Source of the DNA: Acidobacteriota bacterium
GTDB lineage: Bacteria; Acidobacteriota; Terriglobia; Terriglobales; SCQP01
Direction: 5' to 3'
Length of the DNA stretch: 10,441 bases
Assembly: GCA_021823305.1 (NCBI GenBank)
Contig: JAKAOE010000028.1
Span: forward strand, 1 to 10,441
The number at the start of each line of letters is the position of its first letter. The first letter of the stretch is position 1. The translations under genes were made by a program, and so were the position numbers. Below are positions 1-10,000 of the stretch, one piece after another. Below the pieces are notes generated by a model. The model worked only from the letters and a program-made list of their open reading frames with translations. It ran no database searches and was not told the DNA's origin.

Positions 1-2
1 CC

Positions 3-413
3 GGCCGCAAGGCTTTGCCCGAGCTGCGCGCGCCCGAGACCTTCCACGTCTGGCTCTTCCGCATCGTCAAGCGCGCCTGCTACCGCCAGCGCGGCCTGCA
101 TCGTCAGCAGGGCCCCGCGGTTTCCTTGGAGGACCTGCCTGATGCCGGCGCCGAGCTCGAGGCCGGCGCTGCCTGGCCCGACGAGATGCTGCTGCGCGAG
201 GAAACCCGCCGCCAGGTGCAGCAGGCCCTGGCCACGCTCTCCGCCGCCGACCGCCTCATCGTCCTGCTGCGCGATTTCGAGGAACTCCCCACCGCCGAAG
301 TCGCCGGCATCATGGACCTGGGCGAATCGGCGGTCAAAATGCGCCTGCACCGCGCCCGGCAAAAGCTCCGCCGCCTGCTCGCCCCCGCCGGCGACTCCGC
401 GCCTCCGGCCTAG
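3..413 (+). CDS. ECF-type RNA polymerase sigma factor, 5' partial
   Basis: This is the C-terminal 136 residues of a sigma-70 family factor, which directs RNA polymerase to a small regulon. The frame is open to the left edge, so the start lies outside the window; a TTG at 15 is internal, because the end of sigma region 2 (FHVWLFRIVKRACYRQR, about residues 14-30) spans it. After an acidic linker, region 4 occupies about residues 75-125, with the helix-turn-helix TAEVAGIMDLGESAVKMRLH followed by the usual RARQKLRRLL. The linker and region 4 lengths fit extracytoplasmic-function (ECF) sigma factors. The usual anti-sigma partner is not downstream, where the convergent efflux operon begins at once. 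It may lie upstream or be missing. The family is certain; the regulon cannot be read from here. Confidence 0.93.
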   Translation, partial: GRKALPELRAPETFHVWLFRIVKRACYRQRGLHRQQGPAVSLEDLPDAGAELEAGAAWPDEMLLREETRRQVQQALATLSAADRLIVLLRDFEELPTAEVAGIMDLGESAVKMRLHRARQKLRRLLAPAGDSAPPA

Positions 414-3400
414 GCCGCCGCCGGCGCTTCGCGCCGCCACGCCATGTAGTACAGCACCGGCACCGCCAGACGCGAGATCAGCGTCGAGGCCACCTCGCCC
501 GCCATCAGCGAGATCGCCAGACCCTGGAAGATCGGGTCGGGCAGGATCACCGACGCGCCCACGATCACCGCCGCCGCCGTCAGCAGCATCGGCCGGAAGC
601 GCACCGCCCCCGCGTCCACCACCGCCTGCGCCAGCTCCGCGCCCTGCGCCCGCCGCAGCTCGATGAAGTCCACCAGAATGATCGAGTTACGCACGATGAT
701 GCCGGCGCCGGCGATGAAGCCGATCATCGAGGTTGCGGTGAAGAACGCCCCCAGCGCCCAGTGCGCCGGCAGGATGCCGATCAACGTCAGCGGGATCGGC
801 GCCAGGATCACCAGCGGCGTCTTGTAGCTGCGGAACCAGAACACCACCAGCACATAGATCAGCGCCAGCACCGCCGCGAACGCCAGCCCCAGGTCCTTGA
901 ACACACGCACCGTCGTGTCCCACTCCCCGTCCCAGCGCAGCGTGAAGTGGCGGGTGCTGCCCGGTGCCGCGCCCAGCGAGATCGCCAGCGGCCGCCCGTC
1001 GGGCCCGGTCAGTTTCGCCAGCCGCTTGTCCATGTTGAACATGGCGTACGCCGGGCTCTCCACCCCGCCCGCCACATCGCCCATCACGTACACCACCGGC
1101 CGCAGGTCCTTGTGCTGGATCGGCTGCGCCACCACGCCCGTGTGCACCGTCACCAGCTCCGACAGCGGCACCGCGCCCCGGCCGCCCTGCGCCGGCACCG
1201 AAATCCGCAGCAGGTTGGCCACGCCGGAACGGTCCGCGCGGCTCAGCCGCACCCGGATCGGCACCGGCTCGGCCTCGCGCGCGATGTGCGCCAGCCCCGC
1301 CGTCTCGCCCGAGAGCGCGATCTGCAGCGTTTGCGCCACCGCGCTCACCGCCACGCCGCTCAGCGCCGCCTTGCGCTGGTCCATGGCGAACGCCAGCCGC
1401 CGCTCCGGATCCCGCACGAACCAGTCCACGTCCACCACTCCCGGCGTGGTCAGGAACACGCGCTTCACCTGTGCCGCCATCGCGATCTGCTGGCCGTAGT
1501 CGGGGCCATAGATCTCCGCCACCAGCGTCTGCAACACCGGCGGTCCGGGCGGAATCTCGGCCACCGTGAGGCGCGCTCCCGCCGCCGCGGCGATCCGGTC
1601 CAGCCCCGGGCGGAAGCGCAGCGCCAGCGCGTGGCTCGACAGCGGCCGCTTCGATGCGTCCACCAGGTTGACCTGCAGGTCGGCCTGGTTGGGGTTGGTG
1701 CGCAGGAAGTAATGCCGCACCAGCCCGTTGAAGTTGTAGGGCGCGGCCGCGCCGACGTAGCTCTCCACGTTGGTCACCTGCGGTTGCCGCTGCAGCCACC
1801 CGCTCAGCCGCTGCGCCAGCGCCGCGGTGCGCTCCAGCGGCGCGCCGTCGGGCATCTGGACGATCACCTCCATCTCGCTCTTGTTGTCGAAGGGCAGCAT
1901 CTTCACGATCACCGCCTTCATGTACAGCATGCTCAGCGCCGCCAGCAGCAGCGCCACCACCCCGCCCAGGAACGCCCAGCGGTACCGCCGGTGCGCCAGC
2001 AGCGGCGCCATCACCCGCCGGTACAGCCGTGTCATCCAATCCTCGGGCGCGCCCGCGCCGTGCCCGCCCGCGTCCACGGCGTACGCCGGGCGGCAGCGCC
2101 CGCGCAGCGTCCGCACCGCCGCCCAGGGCGCGATGATGAAGGCGCTGGCCAGCGAGATCACCATCGCCGCCGACGCCCCCACCGGGATCGGCCGCATATA
2201 TGGCCCCATCAGCCCGCCCACGAACGCCATCGGCAGCAGCGCCGCGATCACCGTCAGCGTCGCCAGGATGGTCGGGTTGCCCACCTCCGCCACCGCCTCC
2301 ACCGCCACCGCCGGCAGCGGCCGGTCGCAGTTCTGCGGCAGGTGCCAGTGGCGCGCGATGTTCTCCACCACCACGATCGCGTCATCCACCAGGATGCCGA
2401 TCGAAAAGATCAGCGCGAACAGCGTGATCCGGTTCAGCGTGTAGCCGTACAGCTGGAACAGGAACAGCGTCAGCAGCAGCGTCACCGGGATCGCCACCCC
2501 CACCACCGCCGACTCGCGCCAGCCCAGCGCGAAGCCCACCAGCAGCACCACCGACACCGTCGCCAGCAGCATGTGGAACAGCAGCTCGTTCGAGCGCTCC
2601 TCGGCCGTCTTGCCGTAGTTGCGCGTCACCGTCACCGCCACGCCCGAGGGGATCATCCGTCCCTCCAGCGGCCGCACCTGCGCCAGCACGTCGTCCACCA
2701 CCTGGATCGCGTTCGAGCCCTCCAGCTTCGACACCGCGATCGTCACCGCCGGCAGCGGATGCGGGTCGGCCGCCGTCGTGATGCGCACGTAGTGCGTCGC
2801 GCTCGCCGGCCCGTCGCTGACCGTCGCCACGTCGCCCAGCAGCACCGGCTTCCCCGCGCTCACCCCCACCACCACGTCGCTCAATTCCTTGGCGCTGGTC
2901 AGGAACTGCCCGGCGTACACCACCGACTCGCGGTTGTCGCGGTCGAATGTGCCCGCGCGCGCCTGCCGATCCGCCGCTCCGATCGCCCGCGCCACCGTCT
3001 CCGGCGCCAGCCCGTAGGCCGCCAGGCGCGCCGTCTGCAGCCGCACCTCGAGCGCCCGCGGCTCACCGCCGATGATGCCCACGTCGCTCACCTGCGGCAC
3101 CCGCCGGATGATGTCCTGCAGCGTATCCGCCACCCGCCGCAGTTGGTAGCCGTCGTAGCCCGGCCCGGAGAGCGTCAGCGCCAACACCGGCACGTCGTAA
3201 ATCGAGCGCAGCTTGATCAGCGGCGGCGACGCCCCCGGCGGCAGTTCGTCCAGGTGCGCGTAGAGCTTGGTGTAGACCTGCGTCAGGCTCTGCTGCACGT
3301 CCAGCCCCACGCGGAATCGCACCACCACCATCGCCAGCCCCGGGCTCGAGGTCGAGTACACGTGGTCCACGCCCGGGATTTCCTCGATCAGCCGCTCCAT

Positions 3401-3649
3401 CGGGTAGGTCAGCCGCTGCTCCACCTCCGCCGGCGACGCTCCCGGCATCTGCGAGAACACGTCCACGAACGGCACCCGGATCTGCGGCTCCTCCTCGCGC
3501 GGCATCGTCCACAGCGACCAGCCGCCCAGCAGCACTGATCCCAGGATGAACAGCGGCGTCAGCTTGGAGTGGATGAAGTGGCCGGCGATGCGTCCCGCCA
3601 GCCCCTGTCCGGGCGCCGCGCCGGAGGCGTGCGGGTCAGCGTGACGCAC
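410..3649 (-). CDS. RND-family efflux pump permease (inner-membrane subunit)
   Basis: This 1079-residue proton-driven RND transporter has full family length. It should sit in the inner membrane and export substrate through the adaptor and outer membrane factor encoded just upstream. The 12 helices follow the family layout: TM1 about 31-48, TM2-6 about 356-512, TM7 about 558-577 and TM8-12 about 916-1071, with large periplasmic loops after TM1 and TM7. TM4 carries the proton-relay pair D422-D423 in GILVDDAIVVVEN. TM10 has Arg987 (IIVRNSIILVDF) where AcrB has its relay Lys. PREEEPQI (50-57) and VKMLPFDNKSE (582-592) mark the subfamily usually annotated as acriflavin resistance-type RND, not a clear CzcA/CusA metal pump. 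The GTG start at 3649 lies inside the adaptor gene (14-base overlap) and has a GGGGA five bases upstream. Substrate unknown. Confidence 0.96.
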   Translation of the reverse strand: MRHADPHASGAAPGQGLAGRIAGHFIHSKLTPLFILGSVLLGGWSLWTMPREEEPQIRVPFVDVFSQMPGASPAEVEQRLTYPMERLIEEIPGVDHVYSTSSPGLAMVVVRFRVGLDVQQSLTQVYTKLYAHLDELPPGASPPLIKLRSIYDVPVLALTLSGPGYDGYQLRRVADTLQDIIRRVPQVSDVGIIGGEPRALEVRLQTARLAAYGLAPETVARAIGAADRQARAGTFDRDNRESVVYAGQFLTSAKELSDVVVGVSAGKPVLLGDVATVSDGPASATHYVRITTAADPHPLPAVTIAVSKLEGSNAIQVVDDVLAQVRPLEGRMIPSGVAVTVTRNYGKTAEERSNELLFHMLLATVSVVLLVGFALGWRESAVVGVAIPVTLLLTLFLFQLYGYTLNRITLFALIFSIGILVDDAIVVVENIARHWHLPQNCDRPLPAVAVEAVAEVGNPTILATLTVIAALLPMAFVGGLMGPYMRPIPVGASAAMVISLASAFIIAPWAAVRTLRGRCRPAYAVDAGGHGAGAPEDWMTRLYRRVMAPLLAHRRYRWAFLGGVVALLLAALSMLYMKAVIVKMLPFDNKSEMEVIVQMPDGAPLERTAALAQRLSGWLQRQPQVTNVESYVGAAAPYNFNGLVRHYFLRTNPNQADLQVNLVDASKRPLSSHALALRFRPGLDRIAAAAGARLTVAEIPPGPPVLQTLVAEIYGPDYGQQIAMAAQVKRVFLTTPGVVDVDWFVRDPERRLAFAMDQRKAALSGVAVSAVAQTLQIALSGETAGLAHIAREAEPVPIRVRLSRADRSGVANLLRISVPAQGGRGAVPLSELVTVHTGVVAQPIQHKDLRPVVYVMGDVAGGVESPAYAMFNMDKRLAKLTGPDGRPLAISLGAAPGSTRHFTLRWDGEWDTTVRVFKDLGLAFAAVLALIYVLVVFWFRSYKTPLVILAPIPLTLIGILPAHWALGAFFTATSMIGFIAGAGIIVRNSIILVDFIELRRAQGAELAQAVVDAGAVRFRPMLLTAAAVIVGASVILPDPIFQGLAISLMAGEVASTLISRLAVPVLYYMAWRREAPAAA

Positions 3650-4814
3650 GCGCGTCCCCCGCCAGCCGTTGCGGGTTGAGCAAGTACCGCTCGCCCGCGC
3701 TCAGCCCCGACAGCACCTCGACCTGGTTCCCGTGCGCCGTTCCCAGCGTCACCAGCCGCAGTTCCGCCCGTCCCGCCGCGTTGATCACGTACATCTCCTC
3801 CAGCTCGCCGAAGCGCAGCACCGCCGCCGCCGGCACCCGCAGCGCCGCCGCCGCCGGCGCGCCCGCCAGCGGCAGCTCCGCCTCCCCGTACAGTCCGCTG
3901 CGCAGCCCGGGCGCGTCCGGCAGCGCCAGCTTCACCACCGCCGCGCGCGCCTCCGGGTCGCTGGTGGGTGCGATCTCGCGGATCGTCGCCGCCAGCTCGC
4001 GTCCCGCCGGCGCGCCCAGCCGCACCGCCGCCCGCGCCCCCAGCCGCAGCCGCCCCACCACGCTGTCGGGCGCCGCCACCGCGATCTGCCAGCCGCCCGC
4101 CCGCTCCAGCCGCAGCAGCGGCGTGCCCGGCGCCGCCAGGTCGCCGGGGTTCACATACTTCGCCGTCACCACGCCCGCGAACGGCGCGCCCACCGCGCTG
4201 TAGCCGGCCTGGATCTCGGCCTGCGCCCGCCGCGCCCGCGCCGCCGTCGCGCGCTCCGCCGCGCCGCGCACCGCGTCATGCGCCGCCTGCGCCGCGGCCG
4301 CCGCCGCGCGCGCCTCCGCCTGCACCTGTTCGTACTCGTGCGGGCTCACCGAGTTCTCCCGCCGCAGCGTCTGGTAGCGTTCATACGTCGCCTGCGCCAG
4401 CCGTGCCCGCGCGTTCGCCGCGTGCGCCTGCTGCCCGGCCGCCTGCAGTGCCGCGCCCGCCGCCGCCACCTCCGCCCGCGCCGCCGCCAGCCCCTGCTCC
4501 GCCACCGGCGTGGCCAGCTCCACCAGCGTCTCGCCCGCCTTGACCCGCGCGCCCACATCCACCCGCACCGCGCGCACCGTGCCGCTCGCCTGCGCCGCCA
4601 GCGTGGCCGTGGTGCGCGCTTCCACCGTGCCCACCGCGGCGTAAGTCGCCGCCGCCGTCTCCGCCTGCTCCTTGGCCACGCGCGCGCCCGCTGGCAGCGC
4701 CCAGCCCGCCGCCGGCGCGGCCGCCGGCTGCGTCGCCGTCCCGCAGCCCGCCAGCGCCCCGCTCAGCGCCATCCCCAGCGCCGCCGTCCATCCCAGCCGT
4801 AGAGTTTTCGTCAC
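3636..4814 (-). CDS. HlyD/AcrA-type periplasmic adaptor lipoprotein of RND efflux system
   Basis: This 392-residue membrane fusion protein bridges the RND pump and the TolC-like channel. The N-terminus is a lipoprotein signal with lipobox LAGC (Cys24), which should anchor it to a membrane. The first half of a biotinyl-lipoyl domain (about 65-105, SGTVRAVRVDVGARVKAGETL) is followed by an Ala-rich alpha-hairpin (about 105-200). The lipoyl return half is IQAGYSAVGAPFAGVVTAKYVNPGD (in part 204-225), then come beta-barrel and membrane-proximal domains ending in LSGLSAGERYLLNP. The start is the GTG at 4812-4814: it overlaps the stop of the upstream gene as GTGA and has GGGAG seven bases before it. 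The open frame runs further upstream, but that part is an out-of-frame reading of the tolC-like gene. Substrate cannot be inferred from the adaptor. Confidence 0.94.
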   Translation of the reverse strand: MTKTLRLGWTAALGMALSGALAGCGTATQPAAAPAAGWALPAGARVAKEQAETAAATYAAVGTVEARTTATLAAQASGTVRAVRVDVGARVKAGETLVELATPVAEQGLAAARAEVAAAGAALQAAGQQAHAANARARLAQATYERYQTLRRENSVSPHEYEQVQAEARAAAAAAQAAHDAVRGAAERATAARARRAQAEIQAGYSAVGAPFAGVVTAKYVNPGDLAAPGTPLLRLERAGGWQIAVAAPDSVVGRLRLGARAAVRLGAPAGRELAATIREIAPTSDPEARAAVVKLALPDAPGLRSGLYGEAELPLAGAPAAAALRVPAAAVLRFGELEEMYVINAAGRAELRLVTLGTAHGNQVEVLSGLSAGERYLLNPQRLAGDARASR

Positions 4815-6211
4815 CGCGTAGCTCCCGTCACCGCCGTCGCACTCAGCTCGCCCGCCGCCAGCGCCCGGTTGGCCGCGCTCACCGCCAGCGCGTAGCGCGC
4901 CTCGAGCGCCTGGTTCTGCGCCTGCGTCAGCGCCGTCTCCGCCCCCAGCAGCTCGGTGATCGTCGCCAGGCCGCTGGTGTACCGGTTGCGCTCGATCGTT
5001 AGCGCCGCCGCCGCTTGCGCCGCCGCCTGGCGCGCGATCCGCGCCTGTTGCGCCGCCGTCACGCCCGCCTGCCACGCCTCCCGCACCTCCATCTCCACCC
5101 CCTGCCGCAGCTCCGCGCTGCGTGCCGTCTCCCGCCGCTCCGCCGCCAGCGCCGCCTGCAGCGCCGCCCGCCGCCGCCCGCCGCTGTAGGGTGTCCAGCG
5201 CAGCGTCAGCCCCAGCGTCCAGTTCGAGCCGCCGCCATTTGCGAACCGCCACTGGTCGTGCTCCCACGCCGCCGCTCCCTCCAGCGTCGGCAGAAAGGCG
5301 GCCTGCGCCCGCGTCACTTCCGCCCGCGCCGCCGCCAGCCGGTTCCGCTCCGCCTGCAGCTCCGGCCGCCGCCGCTGCGCCGCCTCGAGCAGCGCCGCCA
5401 GCGAGGCCGCCTCCGGCGCCACGCCCGCTTGCGCGTCGTCCGCATCCGGCGGCAACGGCACCGGCGTCGCCTGGTCGCGCCCCATCGCCTGGTTCAGCCC
5501 CGCCCGCGCCACCTCCGCCTGCCCCTGTGCCGCCGCCAGCGCTTCCTCGGCCTGCGCTGCATATACCTGCGCCCGCAGCGCGTCGGCCTGCACCGCCATC
5601 CCGGCGCGGTACCGCGCCTGCGCTTGGTGCAGGCTGGAGGCGGCCTCGGCCGCCGCGCTGCGCGCGATCCGCACCCCCGCTTCTTCCGCCGCCAGCCGGT
5701 AGTAGGCGTTCACCACCGCCGCCACCACCCCCTGCCGCGCCTGCTCGCTTGCGCTCGCCGCCGCCTTTACCCCGAGGCGCGCCTCGCGCGTGCGCAGTTC
5801 GGCCTGCCGCGCGTCGAACAGCGGCACGCCCACCGCGACCCGCGTCGCGTAGTTGTTCAGCGGCGCCGGATGGTTGAGCTGGTTGAGCGCCAGGTCCGCG
5901 ACGGTGAAGCGCTGCTGGCTGAGCAGCGTCCCGAACACGCTCACCGGATTGTCGCTGCGCGTAAAGCCTTCGCTGGTCTCCACTTGCGGCCGCCGCCCCG
6001 CCGCCGCCTCGCCCACCGCCGCCCGCGCCGCCGACTCCTCCGCCTGCGCCGCGCGCAGCCGCGGGCTGTGCGCCAGCGCGATCGTCACCGCCTCCCGCAG
6101 GCTCAGCCCCCGCGCCGCCGGCCCGGCCGCCTGCTGCGCCCCTGCCGCCAGCGCCAGCGCCAACGCGCCCACCGCCGGCGCCAACCTGTGGCGACCGCGC
6201 CCGCCGCTCAT
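4811..6211 (-). CDS. TolC/OprM-type outer membrane efflux protein
   Basis: This 466-residue outer membrane factor forms the exit channel of the tripartite pump. A basic, hydrophobic signal peptide (about 1-25, ending near AAGA/QQ) has no lipobox cysteine, so this is not an OprM-type lipoprotein. Two outer membrane efflux repeats follow. The first begins at LSLREAVTIALAHSPRLRAA (36-55) and the second near residue 268. Each has the NPxLxxA-like entry helix and long Ala/Gln/Arg-rich helices, with VAVGVPLFDARQAE (126-139) and LGLTLRWTPYSGGRRRAA (333-350) as the strand and turn elements. The ATG at 6209-6211 overlaps the stop of the DUF2892 gene as ATGA. An in-frame ATG at 6268 is rejected because it would lie inside that gene. 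No good Shine-Dalgarno is seen, which fits coupling by reinitiation. Confidence 0.94.
   Translation of the reverse strand: MSGGRGRHRLAPAVGALALALAAGAQQAAGPAARGLSLREAVTIALAHSPRLRAAQAEESAARAAVGEAAAGRRPQVETSEGFTRSDNPVSVFGTLLSQQRFTVADLALNQLNHPAPLNNYATRVAVGVPLFDARQAELRTREARLGVKAAASASEQARQGVVAAVVNAYYRLAAEEAGVRIARSAAAEAASSLHQAQARYRAGMAVQADALRAQVYAAQAEEALAAAQGQAEVARAGLNQAMGRDQATPVPLPPDADDAQAGVAPEAASLAALLEAAQRRRPELQAERNRLAAARAEVTRAQAAFLPTLEGAAAWEHDQWRFANGGGSNWTLGLTLRWTPYSGGRRRAALQAALAAERRETARSAELRQGVEMEVREAWQAGVTAAQQARIARQAAAQAAAALTIERNRYTSGLATITELLGAETALTQAQNQALEARYALAVSAANRALAAGELSATAVTGATR
4822..4826 (-). promoter_or_regulatory. Ribosome binding site of the adaptor gene
   Basis: GGGAG on the minus strand lies seven bases before the GTG at 4814, inside the last codons of the tolC-like gene. 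It supports the GTG, overlapping the previous stop, as the adaptor start instead of any upstream codon. Confidence 0.6.
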
Positions 6212-6411
6212 CGGCTCGCCGCCAGCGCCGGCTTGCGCAACCGGTTCAGCAGCATCGCCAGCGGGCAAAAATCAGTGAATCCCGACTGCAGCAGGTTCGC
6301 GCCCACGAAGGCCGTCAGCCAGTACCAGCCCGGCGCGACGAAATGCCCCAACCCCAAGCTCAGCAACACCATGGCCCCGGCGAAGATTCTCACGATCCGT
6401 TCGGTTTGCAT
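6208..6411 (-). CDS. DUF2892 / YgaP-like small inner-membrane protein
   Basis: This 67-residue protein resembles the transmembrane domain of YgaP (DUF2892), but it has no rhodanese domain. Two membrane helices are visible, about residues 8-22 (RIFAGAMVLLSLGLG) and 27-43, followed by the family signature SGFTDFCP with Cys49-Pro50 and a basic tail. The family's biochemical role is unknown, although it often occurs near sulfur and efflux genes. The ATG at 6411 is chosen because GGGAG stands at 6417-6421 and because family members start just before the first helix. An in-frame ATG at 6480 would add a 23-residue polar extension without a clear ribosome site. It is the first gene of the efflux operon and its stop overlaps the tolC-like start. 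It could be an accessory subunit of the pump, but that is inference. Confidence 0.88.
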   Translation of the reverse strand: MQTERIVRIFAGAMVLLSLGLGHFVAPGWYWLTAFVGANLLQSGFTDFCPLAMLLNRLRKPALAASR

Positions 6412-6972: not shown

Positions 6973-7709
6973 GTGCCCGCCCCCCGCCGTTTGCCCGTCC
7001 ACTTCGACGTCGTCGCCTTCGGCGCCCACCCCGACGATCTGGAGGCGGTCATGGCGGCACCGCGCTCAAGCTGCGCCAGGCCGGCCGCACCATTCTCTTC
7101 GTGGATTTGTGCGACGGCGAGCCCGCGCGCTATGCCCCGGCCGGCGTCCGCGGGCGCCAGGCGGCGCTCGCCGCGCGCCTGCTTGGCGTCCAGCGCCTTA
7201 CCCTCCGCCTACGCGATCGCCTCATCCGCGACACCATCGCCGCCCGCCTCCAGGTCGCCGCGCTGCTGCGGCATTACCGCCCGCGCTGGGTCTTCACCAC
7301 CGCCGGCGCCGGCGTCCATCCCGACCATCAGGCCGCCGCCGCCATCGTCGCCAACGGCGTCTTCTACGCCCTGCCCAAGTGGGACCAGGTCGCCGGCGCC
7401 GCCGCTCTCCGCCGCTCCGAGCCGCACGTCATCGAGCGCCTCTTTTTCGGCCACTGCCGCATGGAGCCCGCCTGGAGCCGCTTTGATTTCGCCGTGGACG
7501 TCAGCGCCGTCTATGAGCGCAAGCTCGCCGCCCTGCGCGCCTACGAGTCCGTCTTCCGCGGCGACCAGGCCACCCTGCTCGACAAATACGCGGCCGAGGA
7601 CCGCTACATCGGCAGCCTGGTCGGCGTCCGCTTCGCCGAATCCTTCCGCGCCCGCAGCCCGCTGCTCGTCGCCTCCCCCGAGGCCTTCCTCCCCGCCCGC
7701 TTCGGTTAG
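6973..7709 (+). pseudogene. PIG-L/LmbE family deacetylase, frameshifted by one base
   Basis: PIG-L/LmbE enzymes are zinc-dependent N-deacetylases of GlcNAc-type substrates, including steps of bacillithiol and mycothiol synthesis. The N-terminus in one frame, FDVVAFGAHPDDLEAVM (residues 11-27), has the zinc motif AHPDDxE. The rest of the protein lies in another frame from about 7053. It reads GGTALKLRQAG, a VDLCDGEP segment, the second zinc motif region GVHPDHQAA and a C-terminal YERKLAALRAYESVF. Restoring one G in the GG at 7053-7054 (ATG GGC GGC ACC) joins the parts into an ordinary 245-residue protein. All else looks intact, so the lesion is either very recent or a sequencing error. As given, translation leaves the family frame after residue 27 and runs on to 7785, into the convergent gene. 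It lies 9 bases after the DUF302 gene, probably in the same transcript. Confidence 0.85.
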
Positions 7710-7747: not shown

Positions 7748-8440
7748 TCAGCGCCCCAGCGCGATCGTTATTTGCCCCGGCTTGAAATCCACCTCCAGTT
7801 GCTCCCCGCCGGTCAACCTCCAGCCGGTTACGGTCGCATTTCTTAGCCTGACTGTCATCGCTCTCATTTGCCTGCCCATCCGGTCGCTCGTGGTGGCGAC
7901 CAGTTGGAGCGATTGCGCCCGGCCGCTCAACCCCGCCAGGATGAGGTCTCGGGTTGCCGGGCTCAGTGTGGTCGTGCACACCAACTCGGTCGCGCCATTG
8001 CTGTCGCTGTACCGCAGAGAGTTGCAGTCGATGAGATTTCCGCCAGCCGGGGGCGGAGAAGCCTGAACCGGCGCCGCCGCCGGCGCGCTGCGCAGCGCGC
8101 CGCTGGGCGGGGTGTTCGCCGTAAACGCCGCCGCCGTCGCGCCCGCGCTTGCGCCCAGGACCGTAATCCGACTGGCCCAGATCATGCTGCCCGTTAGCTT
8201 GCCCGTCACCTGCACCGAATTGCCGGCCTGCAGGCGGGCGTGCGAGAATCGCCCGCCCGCCACCTCCACCGCGCCCTGCGTCCGCACCCAGACTGGGGCG
8301 CGTCCCGGCTGGTCCAGTTGAAAATAGCCGGCGCGCAGGACGCCGACGGTTCCCGTGTAAACCTGCTGGGCGGGCAACAGGATCGCGCCGAGCGCGATCA
8401 GCGTGCCGGCCCGGACGGCCCATGATGTCAGGATTCGCAT
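7748..8440 (-). CDS. Secreted protein of unknown function, two beta-rich domains
   Basis: The product has 230 residues. A Sec signal peptide is visible (MRILTSWAVR then a hydrophobic core to about 22, likely cut at LPA/QQ near residue 24). Residues 27-95 alternate as in a small beta barrel with VQVTGKLTG and ASRITVL, reminiscent of OB-fold or DUF5666-type domains. A Pro/Ala linker spans about 96-133. The C-terminal domain (134-230) has two cysteines, Cys139 and Cys155, which could pair in the periplasm. Its end, VRLRNATVTGWRLTGGEQLE then VDFKPGQITIAL, is loosely like the last strands of Hcp-type barrels, but this is only a resemblance. The ATG at 8440 has an excellent AAGGAG five bases upstream. 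It is the last gene of the minus-strand group, 19 bases after the cysteine-cluster gene. I do not recognise the family. Confidence 0.85.
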   Translation of the reverse strand: MRILTSWAVRAGTLIALGAILLPAQQVYTGTVGVLRAGYFQLDQPGRAPVWVRTQGAVEVAGGRFSHARLQAGNSVQVTGKLTGSMIWASRITVLGASAGATAAAFTANTPPSGALRSAPAAAPVQASPPPAGGNLIDCNSLRYSDSNGATELVCTTTLSPATRDLILAGLSGRAQSLQLVATTSDRMGRQMRAMTVRLRNATVTGWRLTGGEQLEVDFKPGQITIALGR

Positions 8441-8459: not shown

Positions 8460-9641
8460 TTACCGCGCCAACGTGCCGGTGCCCGGAACGTCGCCGGATG
8501 CGCCGGCAAATTCCCGAAAGCCGCCCTCCGCCTTGGCTGCGGCGTCCGGATTTTGCAACAACCCGAAATCCGCCAGCTTCAGCACCAGGTCTTCCCCCAG
8601 ATCGATGTTCTCCCGCTCCTGAATCGCTGCCATGGCCGCGCGCGCCGTCCGGCCATGAAAATAGTGCAGCACGTGCAGCACCGCCACTGGCAGCTCCAGC
8701 GGGTCGAGCTGGCTGTAGCTGAGCGTGCGCACGCTATCGGTTGCGATGTTTACCAGTTCAAAGGCCGCCGGTTCAAGCCGCTCCGGCAGTTGCGCATCGC
8801 GCAGTCGCTCGTAGGCCAGCCGCGCCAGCCGCGCCAGCGCCCGCGCTTCCGGTCCGCAGATGGCCAGTACCTGCGTCCATGGCAACTCCCGGACCCGCTC
8901 GGCGCAGGCACGGTACCACTCCATTTCACGCCCCAGCCAGTTGCGCCACAGCCGCCGCTGCGCGCCGGGTTCGGCGCGATGGTCAAGCTGCTCGGCGCGC
9001 AGCGGCTCGGCTTCGCTCGAGCGTGCGGCAGCCAGCAATGGACGCAGCGCCTCCAGATCGAAGCCCAAGTCCAGCGCGCACCATAGTGCCAGGCTGCGCT
9101 CAACCGTTCCCAACAGTGGATGCACGTAGTCGCGCCAGAACGCCTGGCCGCGCGCCCCGCGCACGTATTTGCAATACCAGGTCGAGCAGGTGGATTCGCG
9201 GTACCTCCAGACCCCGCAGCGGCCGCCGTCCTCCAAATAATGTGGGCAGCGCAGCGCCCGGCTGCGCCCGAAAGCCGCCGCCCCGTGCCGGTACAACAGC
9301 GCGTAATCGGCCGGCGGCTCCAGGCTCAGTGGTGTGACGCCGACACCGCCCTGGATGCGTTCTTCGACCGTCAGGCGGCCGGCGGCCAGCGCCGGATCGT
9401 CGTCGCTCAGAATCTGCCCGGTGAGGAAATTGTGCAACTCGGGGACGTACGAGCAGCACTTCATCGCCGGCTCGAAGTACAAACGGCCGTCGTCCGGGGC
9501 GGCATCTCCGGGCTTGGCCAGCATGGCGCAATCCGCGCAAGTGGCACGGGTTTCAGCCGGAATCGGCCCCTCGAACAGAGCCTCCAGCCAGCCGGCGTGA
9601 AGCGCCGGCAGGACCGCGGTCGCCCCAGTTTGGCGCGCCAT
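8460..9641 (-). CDS. Eight-cysteine cluster protein, YkgJ/FliB-like (putative metal- or Fe-S-binding)
   Basis: This 393-residue cytoplasmic protein has no signal peptide. The first 160 residues hold exactly eight cysteines. They form CADC (35, 38), KCCSYVPELHNFLTG (62, 63), RCPHY (132), GGRCGVWRYRESTCSTWYCK (142, 152, 157). This order, CxxC then CC then CP then CG(V/I)(W/Y)xxR...C, recalls the YkgJ zinc/iron-chelating family (PF03692), which also covers flagellin lysine N-methylase FliB. The spacing is looser than in short YkgJ proteins, so the assignment is by pattern only. The C-terminal half is helical and Arg/Leu-rich. It ends in a possible winged-helix-like segment (about 310-362, LPVAVLHVLHYFHGR to LKLADFGLL). 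The ATG at 9641 follows an AAGG near the previous stop. The gene lies between the lysine-repeat gene (13 bases away) and the secreted-protein gene (19 bases away). Substrate and reaction are unknown. Confidence 0.85.
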   Translation of the reverse strand: MARQTGATAVLPALHAGWLEALFEGPIPAETRATCADCAMLAKPGDAAPDDGRLYFEPAMKCCSYVPELHNFLTGQILSDDDPALAAGRLTVEERIQGGVGVTPLSLEPPADYALLYRHGAAAFGRSRALRCPHYLEDGGRCGVWRYRESTCSTWYCKYVRGARGQAFWRDYVHPLLGTVERSLALWCALDLGFDLEALRPLLAAARSSEAEPLRAEQLDHRAEPGAQRRLWRNWLGREMEWYRACAERVRELPWTQVLAICGPEARALARLARLAYERLRDAQLPERLEPAAFELVNIATDSVRTLSYSQLDPLELPVAVLHVLHYFHGRTARAAMAAIQERENIDLGEDLVLKLADFGLLQNPDAAAKAEGGFREFAGASGDVPGTGTLAR

Positions 9642-9654
9642 CTATGCCAGCCTT

Positions 9655-9957
9655 TTAGAACTCATAGTGTTTAATTCCCGTCTTGGCATAGGGCTTCGTG
9701 TAGGTCTTCAGCAGTGATTTGTTGAAGGCCTTATGCAGGCCTTTGTTGGCCATGGCGTTGGCCGATTTGCTGTAGCCCGTCGCGGCCCGCTTGGAAGCGC
9801 CTTTGTCCATGACCATGGCGCCCGGCTTCGGCGCCACGCCGCCGCGCGGATGTTTGAGGCTCTGCGCATTGTAGGCGGCGTGCGCCGGCTTGCCCGGCGG
9901 TTTGGGCTTGGGCGTCTGACCCAACAAGCCCCATAACGCCAGCAGAAGTGAATCCAT
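9655..9957 (-). CDS. Small lysine-rich protein with tetrapeptide (xxxK) repeats
   Basis: The product has 100 residues, 15 of them Lys and few acidic, so it is strongly basic. A short hydrophobic start (SLLLALWGLLG, 3-13) leads into a Pro/Lys stretch (QTPKPKPPGKP, 14-24). From residue 44 most lysines fall on positions divisible by four (44, 52, 56, 64, 72, 76, 80, 84, 88, 92, 96). The last seven tetrads are MANK, GLHK, AFNK, SLLK, TYTK, PYAK and TGIK, with a small residue first, often a hydrophobic or aromatic residue second, and Lys last. The chain ends HYEF. The start is certain: AAAGGAGG lies seven bases before the ATG, and upstream extensions are compositionally unlike coding sequence. There are no cysteines. 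I know no such family. It might be a secreted or membrane-tethered polycation, but the N-terminus lacks the positive charge of a normal signal peptide. Confidence 0.85.
   Translation of the reverse strand: MDSLLLALWGLLGQTPKPKPPGKPAHAAYNAQSLKHPRGGVAPKPGAMVMDKGASKRAATGYSKSANAMANKGLHKAFNKSLLKTYTKPYAKTGIKHYEF
9670..9837 (-). repeat. Degenerate 12-base coding repeat (tetrapeptides ending in Lys)
   Basis: This stretch encodes residues 41-96 of the small basic protein as 14 consecutive tetrapeptides, of which 11 end in Lys. The lysine codons are a mix of AAA and AAG, and the other codons vary freely. The periodicity is therefore kept at the protein level and is not a fresh DNA tandem duplication. 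Confidence 0.75.
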
Positions 9958-9964
9958 ACGACGG

Positions 9965-9972
9965 CCTCCTTT
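9965..9972 (-). promoter_or_regulatory. Near-perfect ribosome binding site (AAAGGAGG) of the lysine-repeat gene
   Basis: An eight-base match to the anti-Shine-Dalgarno lies seven bases before the ATG at 9957. It is the strongest ribosome site in the window, which suggests that the small protein is made in quantity. Confidence 0.85.
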
Positions 9973-10000
9973 GGTTTCAGCATTTTTACGGCAGTCCGTT

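Follow-up and report, generated by a model that had tools for sequence, protein, structure and literature searches.

An unusual lysine-array core and a Cys-rich enzyme with a predicted RRE: a candidate RiPP class from an Acidobacteriota bacterium

Some pathways for ribosomally synthesized and post-translationally modified peptides (RiPPs) depend on a RiPP recognition element (RRE); in the lasso peptide, cyanobactin, thiopeptide, pyrroloquinoline quinone (PQQ) and radical S-adenosylmethionine (radical-SAM) systems, a small precursor combines a conserved leader with a variable core. The closest biochemical precedent is FliB, which has eight conserved cysteines, holds a [4Fe-4S] cluster in a CX4CX3CC motif and methylates most of the exposed flagellin lysines (PMC8598068). 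Here, we describe a locus with likenesses to both in an Acidobacteriota bacterium, on a 10,441-nucleotide stretch (the window) comprising positions 1 to 10,441 of contig JAKAOE010000028.1 (assembly GCA_021823305.1). A gene for a small precursor-like protein, whose tail carries a lysine every four residues, sits immediately before a gene for a Cys-rich putative modifying enzyme with a predicted RRE, and the pair is presented as a candidate RiPP class. The features of the small protein are as follows.

9655..9957, minus strand: precursor-like gene, open reading frame (ORF) of 100 amino acids comprising leader and Lys-array core; homologues L003/L012, L004/L011 and L013
9838..9957, minus strand: leader, residues 1-40, with a hydrophobic N-terminus and a conserved ..NAQxLxxPRGG, from identity among homologues
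9838..9843, minus strand: Gly39-Gly40, putative leader/core boundary, from alignment conservation
9658..9837, minus strand: core, residues 41-100, net charge +10, with 11 Lys in one phase
9670..9744, minus strand: unbroken run of Lys at every fourth residue, residues 72-96, 7 Lys

The ATG of the precursor-like gene is preceded by GGAGG at 9965-9969, and the translated protein has Lys at residues 17, 19, 23, 35, 44, 52, 56, 64, 72, 76, 80, 84, 88, 92 and 96. A sequence-only reading had marked the interval 9670-9837, which is exactly residues 41-96 of the core after Gly-Gly, and had listed Lys at every fourth position from 72 to 96 as well as at 44, 52, 56 and 64. The ORF translation agrees: all 11 lysines of residues 41-100 lie in a single four-residue phase, broken at 48 (Met), 60 (Thr) and 68 (Ala), and the four lysines of residues 1-40, which that reading did not mention, lie outside it. 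The periodicity was also beyond that expected from composition. Of 50,002 shuffles of the full protein, a single one had a period-4 run of at least seven Lys, 11 had a run of that length when all periods from 3 to 8 were allowed, and 5 had 11 Lys in one phase; none of 20,000 shuffles of the core alone matched the observed run. The longest period-4 Lys run among 741 other ORFs (at least 90 amino acids, from the collected loci, with loci holding the window's own gene and some duplicates excluded) was 4, the exception being the homologue L012, with a run of 10. The Lys codons are a mixture of AAA and AAG, and Tandem Repeats Finder gave no tandem repeat at 9600-10000; the pattern therefore resides in the protein. 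The proposed tetrad rule held only loosely: in the seven tetrads ending at residues 72-96, position 1 was small in six and position 2 hydrophobic or aromatic in five.

Chance, composition or a spurious ORF would suit a window genome that is a 73% complete draft of 471 contigs, and a protein database search with the single sequence that matched only the window's own protein. Such an origin is scarcely credible, as it is already contradicted by the shuffle tests, the GGAGG site and homologues from six further genomes, where they occupy loci of the same type. In the predicted structure, an N-terminal helix at residues 3-12 (predicted local distance difference test (pLDDT) 61) is followed by disorder, with block-mean pLDDT values of 49-59 for the core. 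Predicted disorder is as expected for a precursor and says nothing on function.

A contig scan with the single small-protein sequence also gave no match, and a whole-genome search followed by a profile was needed because the single-sequence search is blind to relatives. The whole-genome search, covering 14 genomes of the family, revealed two clear homologues (E 3e-10 and 3e-9), and in both cases the gene immediately downstream is homologous to the one that follows the precursor in the window; a third, L013, came from a locus scan using that following gene, the enzyme. Conservation splits at Gly-Gly into a conserved leader and a variable core: identity to L012, L011 and L013 was 54, 56 and 46% in the leader and 38, 22 and 25% in the core, so that all three pairs show the RiPP precursor pattern, in which a short ORF keeps its leader and varies in its core. 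Gly-Gly was invariant across a 19-row alignment, and in a 41-row alignment the first Gly was invariant and the second nearly so (P0170 has Gly-Ser). A profile built from seven linked small proteins matched 59 proteins at E<=10, of which 55 reached E<=1e-3, a number that counts the window's own protein and four other query members. Most of them begin with a short hydrophobic stretch, followed by a conserved ..GADAIVQPNGGA.. and then a variable Lys/Arg/His-rich tail; the ..YNAQSLKHPRGGV.. of the window is a divergent form of this leader motif.

The neighbouring gene has three features of interest.

8460..9641, minus strand: putative modifying enzyme, ORF of 393 amino acids, 13 bases downstream of the precursor
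9171..9539, minus strand: Cys-rich part, enzyme residues 35-157, with C35xxC38, C62C63, C132, C142, C152 and C157, from conservation among 30 sequences
8526..8789, minus strand: RRE-like domain, enzyme residues 285-372

Across the 30 sequences, C62, C63, C132, C142, C152 and C157 were invariant and C35 and C38 nearly invariant, the motif being CX2C-X23-CC; a ninth cysteine, C246, was also nearly invariant. The enzyme family comprises 173 proteins at E<=1e-5, the window's enzyme included, among 8000 candidates scored. The enzyme is rare and its distribution patchy: it was detected in 4 genomes out of 200 for the order, 5 out of 399 for the class (one of these a partial match) and 5 out of 396 for the phylum sample, each total including the genome of the window. 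In a 45-row tree, whose bootstrap was not fully settled, the window's enzyme grouped with those of L012, L011 and L013 (96/98 for the four). Pfam and NCBIfam gave no match at E<=1 for the window's enzyme, its profile had no match at E<=10 among PDB sequences, and Foldseek gave no standout match for the N-terminal part, which proves nothing. The earlier description of the neighbour as 'YkgJ-like' gained only weak support: PF03692 matched 9 of 30 relatives at E<=1 (best E 0.016) without reaching the gathering score, and the window's enzyme had no PF03692 match at E<=1. As a match at E 0.028 scored 15.5 bits, the best one should fall well short of the 23-bit cut-off.

For the C-terminus, the predicted bbb-aaa winged-helix fold matches solved RREs, and the ten best structural matches of the predicted domain were all RiPP proteins. 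Based on this model, the C-terminus is predicted to be an RRE.

The precursor and enzyme genes are linked beyond the window. Run against the phylum sample (396 genomes), the small-protein profile recovered no copy beyond that of the window (E<=1e-4). In eight genomes named by their enzyme locus, it found 8 precursor copies in 6 genomes (E<=1e-3), all at the enzyme locus; the other two, with classical-GG loci, had no match to the profile. With the window included, 9 of 9 copies in 7 genomes lie at the enzyme locus, where G837/G838, which share contigs with G003/G009, were counted once and genomes with a precursor only were detectable solely in the 14-genome family search and the 396-genome phylum search.

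Sixty-three enzyme loci were then read (62 of 64 from the locus scan, without L019 and L074, plus L010), several of them cut by contig ends. A Lys-rich small ORF with GG was present at eight (L010-L015, L041 and L049; partly searched by Lys content) and classical double-glycine leaders at nine (L017, L022, L024, L025, L026, L034, L037, L046 and L058). L014 carries tandem precursor paralogues, L025 an NHLM exporter (TIGR03797, above cut-off), and L046 a protein of the radical-SAM/SPASM type, which scored above cut-off with PF04055 and below it with NCBIfam maturase models, together with a TIGR04500-like fragment, below cut-off. Among the ORFs of 65 loci, relatives of the L025 exporter were found in L026 (2e-161) and L055 (1e-68), with weaker ones in L028, L023 and L041, and there were no further relatives of the L046 radical-SAM protein or TIGR04500-like fragment. 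The wider enzyme family thus also sits in RiPP-like settings.

Other observations at these loci are recorded here. Next to the radical-SAM/SPASM gene, L046:3524-3808 (minus strand) encodes another double-glycine precursor, which has repeats of the GISTGISTGISTG type and ends in a Cys/Gly-rich stretch. Several classical-GG cores share a short hydrophobic-Lys motif (FLKIDG, FIKINTG, TVKLHK, SIKLEHE), and FLKIDG resembles the beginning of Hcp proteins. Upstream of the precursor there is a protease gene of the CPBP/Rce1 type (PF02517; L011:1720-2475 and L004:371-1378, both plus strand); the next ORF has an EELFFRGL motif, which presumably resembles that family. Proteases of the CPBP/Rce1 type could cut leaders.

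Two roles had been suggested for the small protein, a polycation or a substrate with arrayed lysines. The substrate role is supported by the GG leader, the enzyme linkage, the predicted RRE and the disordered core. A plain basic protein, attaching through its charge to DNA, RNA, cell wall or membrane, with the Cys-rich neighbour as a partner or chaperone that holds it by an RRE-like fold and does not modify it, would agree with the core net charge of +10, the disorder in the model and the hydrophobic N-terminal segment, and no catalytic family was recognised in the neighbour. We consider it improbable: the conserved GG leader, predicted RRE and tandem paralogues of L014 form a peptide-biosynthesis layout, and charge alone leaves the i,i+4 spacing of the lysines unexplained.

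This spacing was followed into other cores. Conservation of the Lys phase in homologues, on which the sequence-only reading had staked its pattern, was borne out by L012, which keeps strict period four throughout its run of 10 Lys, but not by L011 (best run 4) and L013, which lack strict period four, or by P0136 (QPNGG type), which has no period four. The every-fourth rule is therefore not universal, being strict in only 2 of 4 close homologues, and a strict four-residue phase as a conserved rule was dropped. Ten enzyme-linked Lys-rich cores, hand-picked from enzyme loci and partly for their Lys-richness, had 57 Lys pairs four apart compared with 28.7 expected, the shuffles preserving composition and not that choice. 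When the window and L012 were removed, the remaining eight cores still had 40 such pairs compared with 24.0 expected (0 of 5000 shuffles); leaving out each core in turn gave p<=0.0014 for spacing four, and none of the other spacings from 1 to 10 had p<0.1. A Lys-rich control of only 10 segments (60 amino acids with at least 8 Lys), its size limited because the genomes are Lys-poor, showed 11 pairs at spacing four compared with 10.2 expected. The general property is Lys-richness with an excess of i,i+4 spacing, rather than a strict every-fourth rule.

On balance, we lean towards a RiPP-type precursor with a downstream maturase, in which the leader docks on the RRE and the Cys centre modifies the lysines of the tail. 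Residues 1-40 would be the leader, bound by the RRE domain at the C-terminus of the maturase, and docking would hold the tail before the N-terminal eight-cysteine centre, which is probably an Fe-S or metal site. This centre would work through the tail lysines in succession, modifying their side chains, with the [small]-[hydrophobic/aromatic]-x-Lys tetrad giving each lysine a similar local frame. Modification of lysine is our best guess as to the target, favoured since it is the residue that the linked cores have in common and set at intervals; on the FliB analogy alone, N-methylation would be the likeliest chemistry. Cleavage behind Gly-Gly by a protease may follow. C39 peptidases were found at E<=1e-3 in 4 of the 7 pair-carrying genomes (3 above cut-off) and not in the other three. 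The array, the gene pair and its linkage, the split in conservation and the predicted RRE are observed here, and the steps from leader binding through catalysis to cleavage, like the lysine target and the role of the product, are inferred. We propose more tentatively that the system may be a new RiPP class, in which a family of RRE-fused Cys-rich Fe-S enzymes in Acidobacteriota and other phyla iteratively modifies a periodic lysine array, the product being a polycation with a modified (methylated or otherwise derivatised) lysine at every fourth residue.

Several observations weigh against this interpretation. Concerning the enzyme, model confidence was low (block means 51-68) across much of the Cys-rich part. 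Foldseek alone (without VIA-align) gave E>=1.6 for the model, with no significant match, and the PqqD profile (PF05402) matched weakly, with an hhalign probability of 15% (20 PqqD rows), in the expected stretch, the other two enzyme parts giving 0.1%. The CX4CX3CC motif of FliB is absent, CX2C-X23-CC standing in its place, and the hhalign probability of enzyme versus FliB was 1% (15 rows) compared with 96% for FliB versus YkgJ, where 15 of the 20 FliB loci fetched were used (8 above the NF038110 cut-off and 7 below) and 23 of 24 YkgJ loci (one with a stop dropped). The enzyme's match to YkgJ is limited to a 27-column motif (15.7%). Concerning the pairing, the linkage is partly by selection, as most of the seven genomes were reached via the enzyme and some 50 database relatives of the small protein lie outside the test. 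Of the weak small-protein matches, in G010 (6.7e-4, with an internal stop), G005 (0.05) and, as a second match, G000 (0.04), the first two are in genomes without the enzyme. As searched here, 46 of the 63 enzyme loci had no neighbouring GG precursor, and the Lys-rich-GG label needs three changes on the tree and does not form one clade. C39 peptidases at E<=1e-3 were not found in G003, G009 and G157, one of which is rated 100% complete, some assemblies being incomplete. Finally, the classical-GG cores mostly hold few lysines and the QPNGG tails are rich in Arg and His as well as Lys.

The last point and the weak FliB link also suit a different form of RiPP pair, in which the enzyme has a target different from lysine (Tyr/Phe in the tetrads, the backbone or Gly/Pro) and the lysines merely make the product cationic, for example as an antimicrobial or a membrane- or nucleic-acid-binding peptide. 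The linkage and RRE evidence is equally compatible with such a target. The enrichment of i,i+4 Lys spacing in the eight other enzyme-linked cores and the Lys-rich GG precursors at enzyme loci argue against it, and we regard it as possible but rather unlikely.

If lysine modification by the maturase is correct, an enzyme family of more than 170 members would gain a role and a substrate, and RiPPs a new domain fusion and possibly new chemistry. With seven lysines in similar frames on one substrate of ~11 kDa, iteration and directionality would be readable in one mass spectrum. The system would further show whether lysine is modified by a Cys-rich centre that does not belong to FliB.

Among the other genes, Hcp-like (PF05638) matches occur near the pair at L013:1574-2197 (plus strand, E 4e-7) and at 7748-8440 of the window (minus strand, E 0.033, below cut-off); homology of the downstream 230-amino-acid gene with the L013 Hcp-like gene was dropped (E 1.6). 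A Coat_F match (E 0.073) was dismissed as chance. Further genes of the window are listed below, the last two named by sequence reading.

7101-7709, plus strand: BshB1-like bacillithiol deacetylase (TIGR04001 below cut-off, PF02585 above)
410-6268, minus strand: consecutive genes for a resistance-nodulation-division (RND) pump, a HlyD-type adaptor and an outer membrane protein of the TolC type
1-413, plus strand: partial sigma-factor-like ORF

Literature searches, whose coverage excluded most subscription journals, found no paper joining YkgJ or PF03692 with RiPPs and none joining lysine N-methylation, a RiPP precursor and an RRE; the combination of FliB, RiPP and lysine gave nothing on such a system by title. 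A search for ribosomally synthesized, methyllysine and leader peptide gave only a review of the pyrrolysine system, and a word search of the main text of two RRE-Finder papers found no YkgJ, FliB or PF03692.

Regularly spaced lysines in short repeats are familiar from silaffins and mussel adhesive proteins (Lys/Tyr repeats). Double-glycine leaders of the bacteriocin and NHLM type are approached by distant enzyme loci, which use LSxEDLExVxGG, and by L025 with its exporter; the leader of the window, in contrast, starts hydrophobic and ends QSLKHPRGG, and C39 peptidases were not found in 3 of the 7 genomes. With YkgJ (PF03692), the RCPHYLEDGGRCGVWRYRESTCSTW of the enzyme aligns with CPxL..GxCxVYxxRPxxCRxF, whereas YkgJ has CX2CX2CC where the enzyme has CX2C-X23-CC. 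The lysine N-methyltransferase FliB (NF038110) shares the Cys-rich N-terminal part with eight conserved cysteines, and FliB acts on many lysines of one substrate, as is proposed by analogy for the enzyme of the window. 'PqqD' does not occur in PMC8598068, whose passages on FliB describe no RRE, whereas the enzyme of the window has a predicted RRE. The enzyme was rejected as a FliB member on its profile probability of 1%, its different cysteine spacing and the absence of an NF038110 match in the window's own genome at E<=10. With the RRE-dependent RiPP systems, the locus shares, besides the precursor layout, an adjacent enzyme with a predicted bbb-aaa RRE and the tandem precursors of L014. It differs from them in that the predicted RRE forms the C-terminal end of a fusion whose Cys-rich part reaches no Pfam cut-off, and in that the core is a lysine tetrad array.
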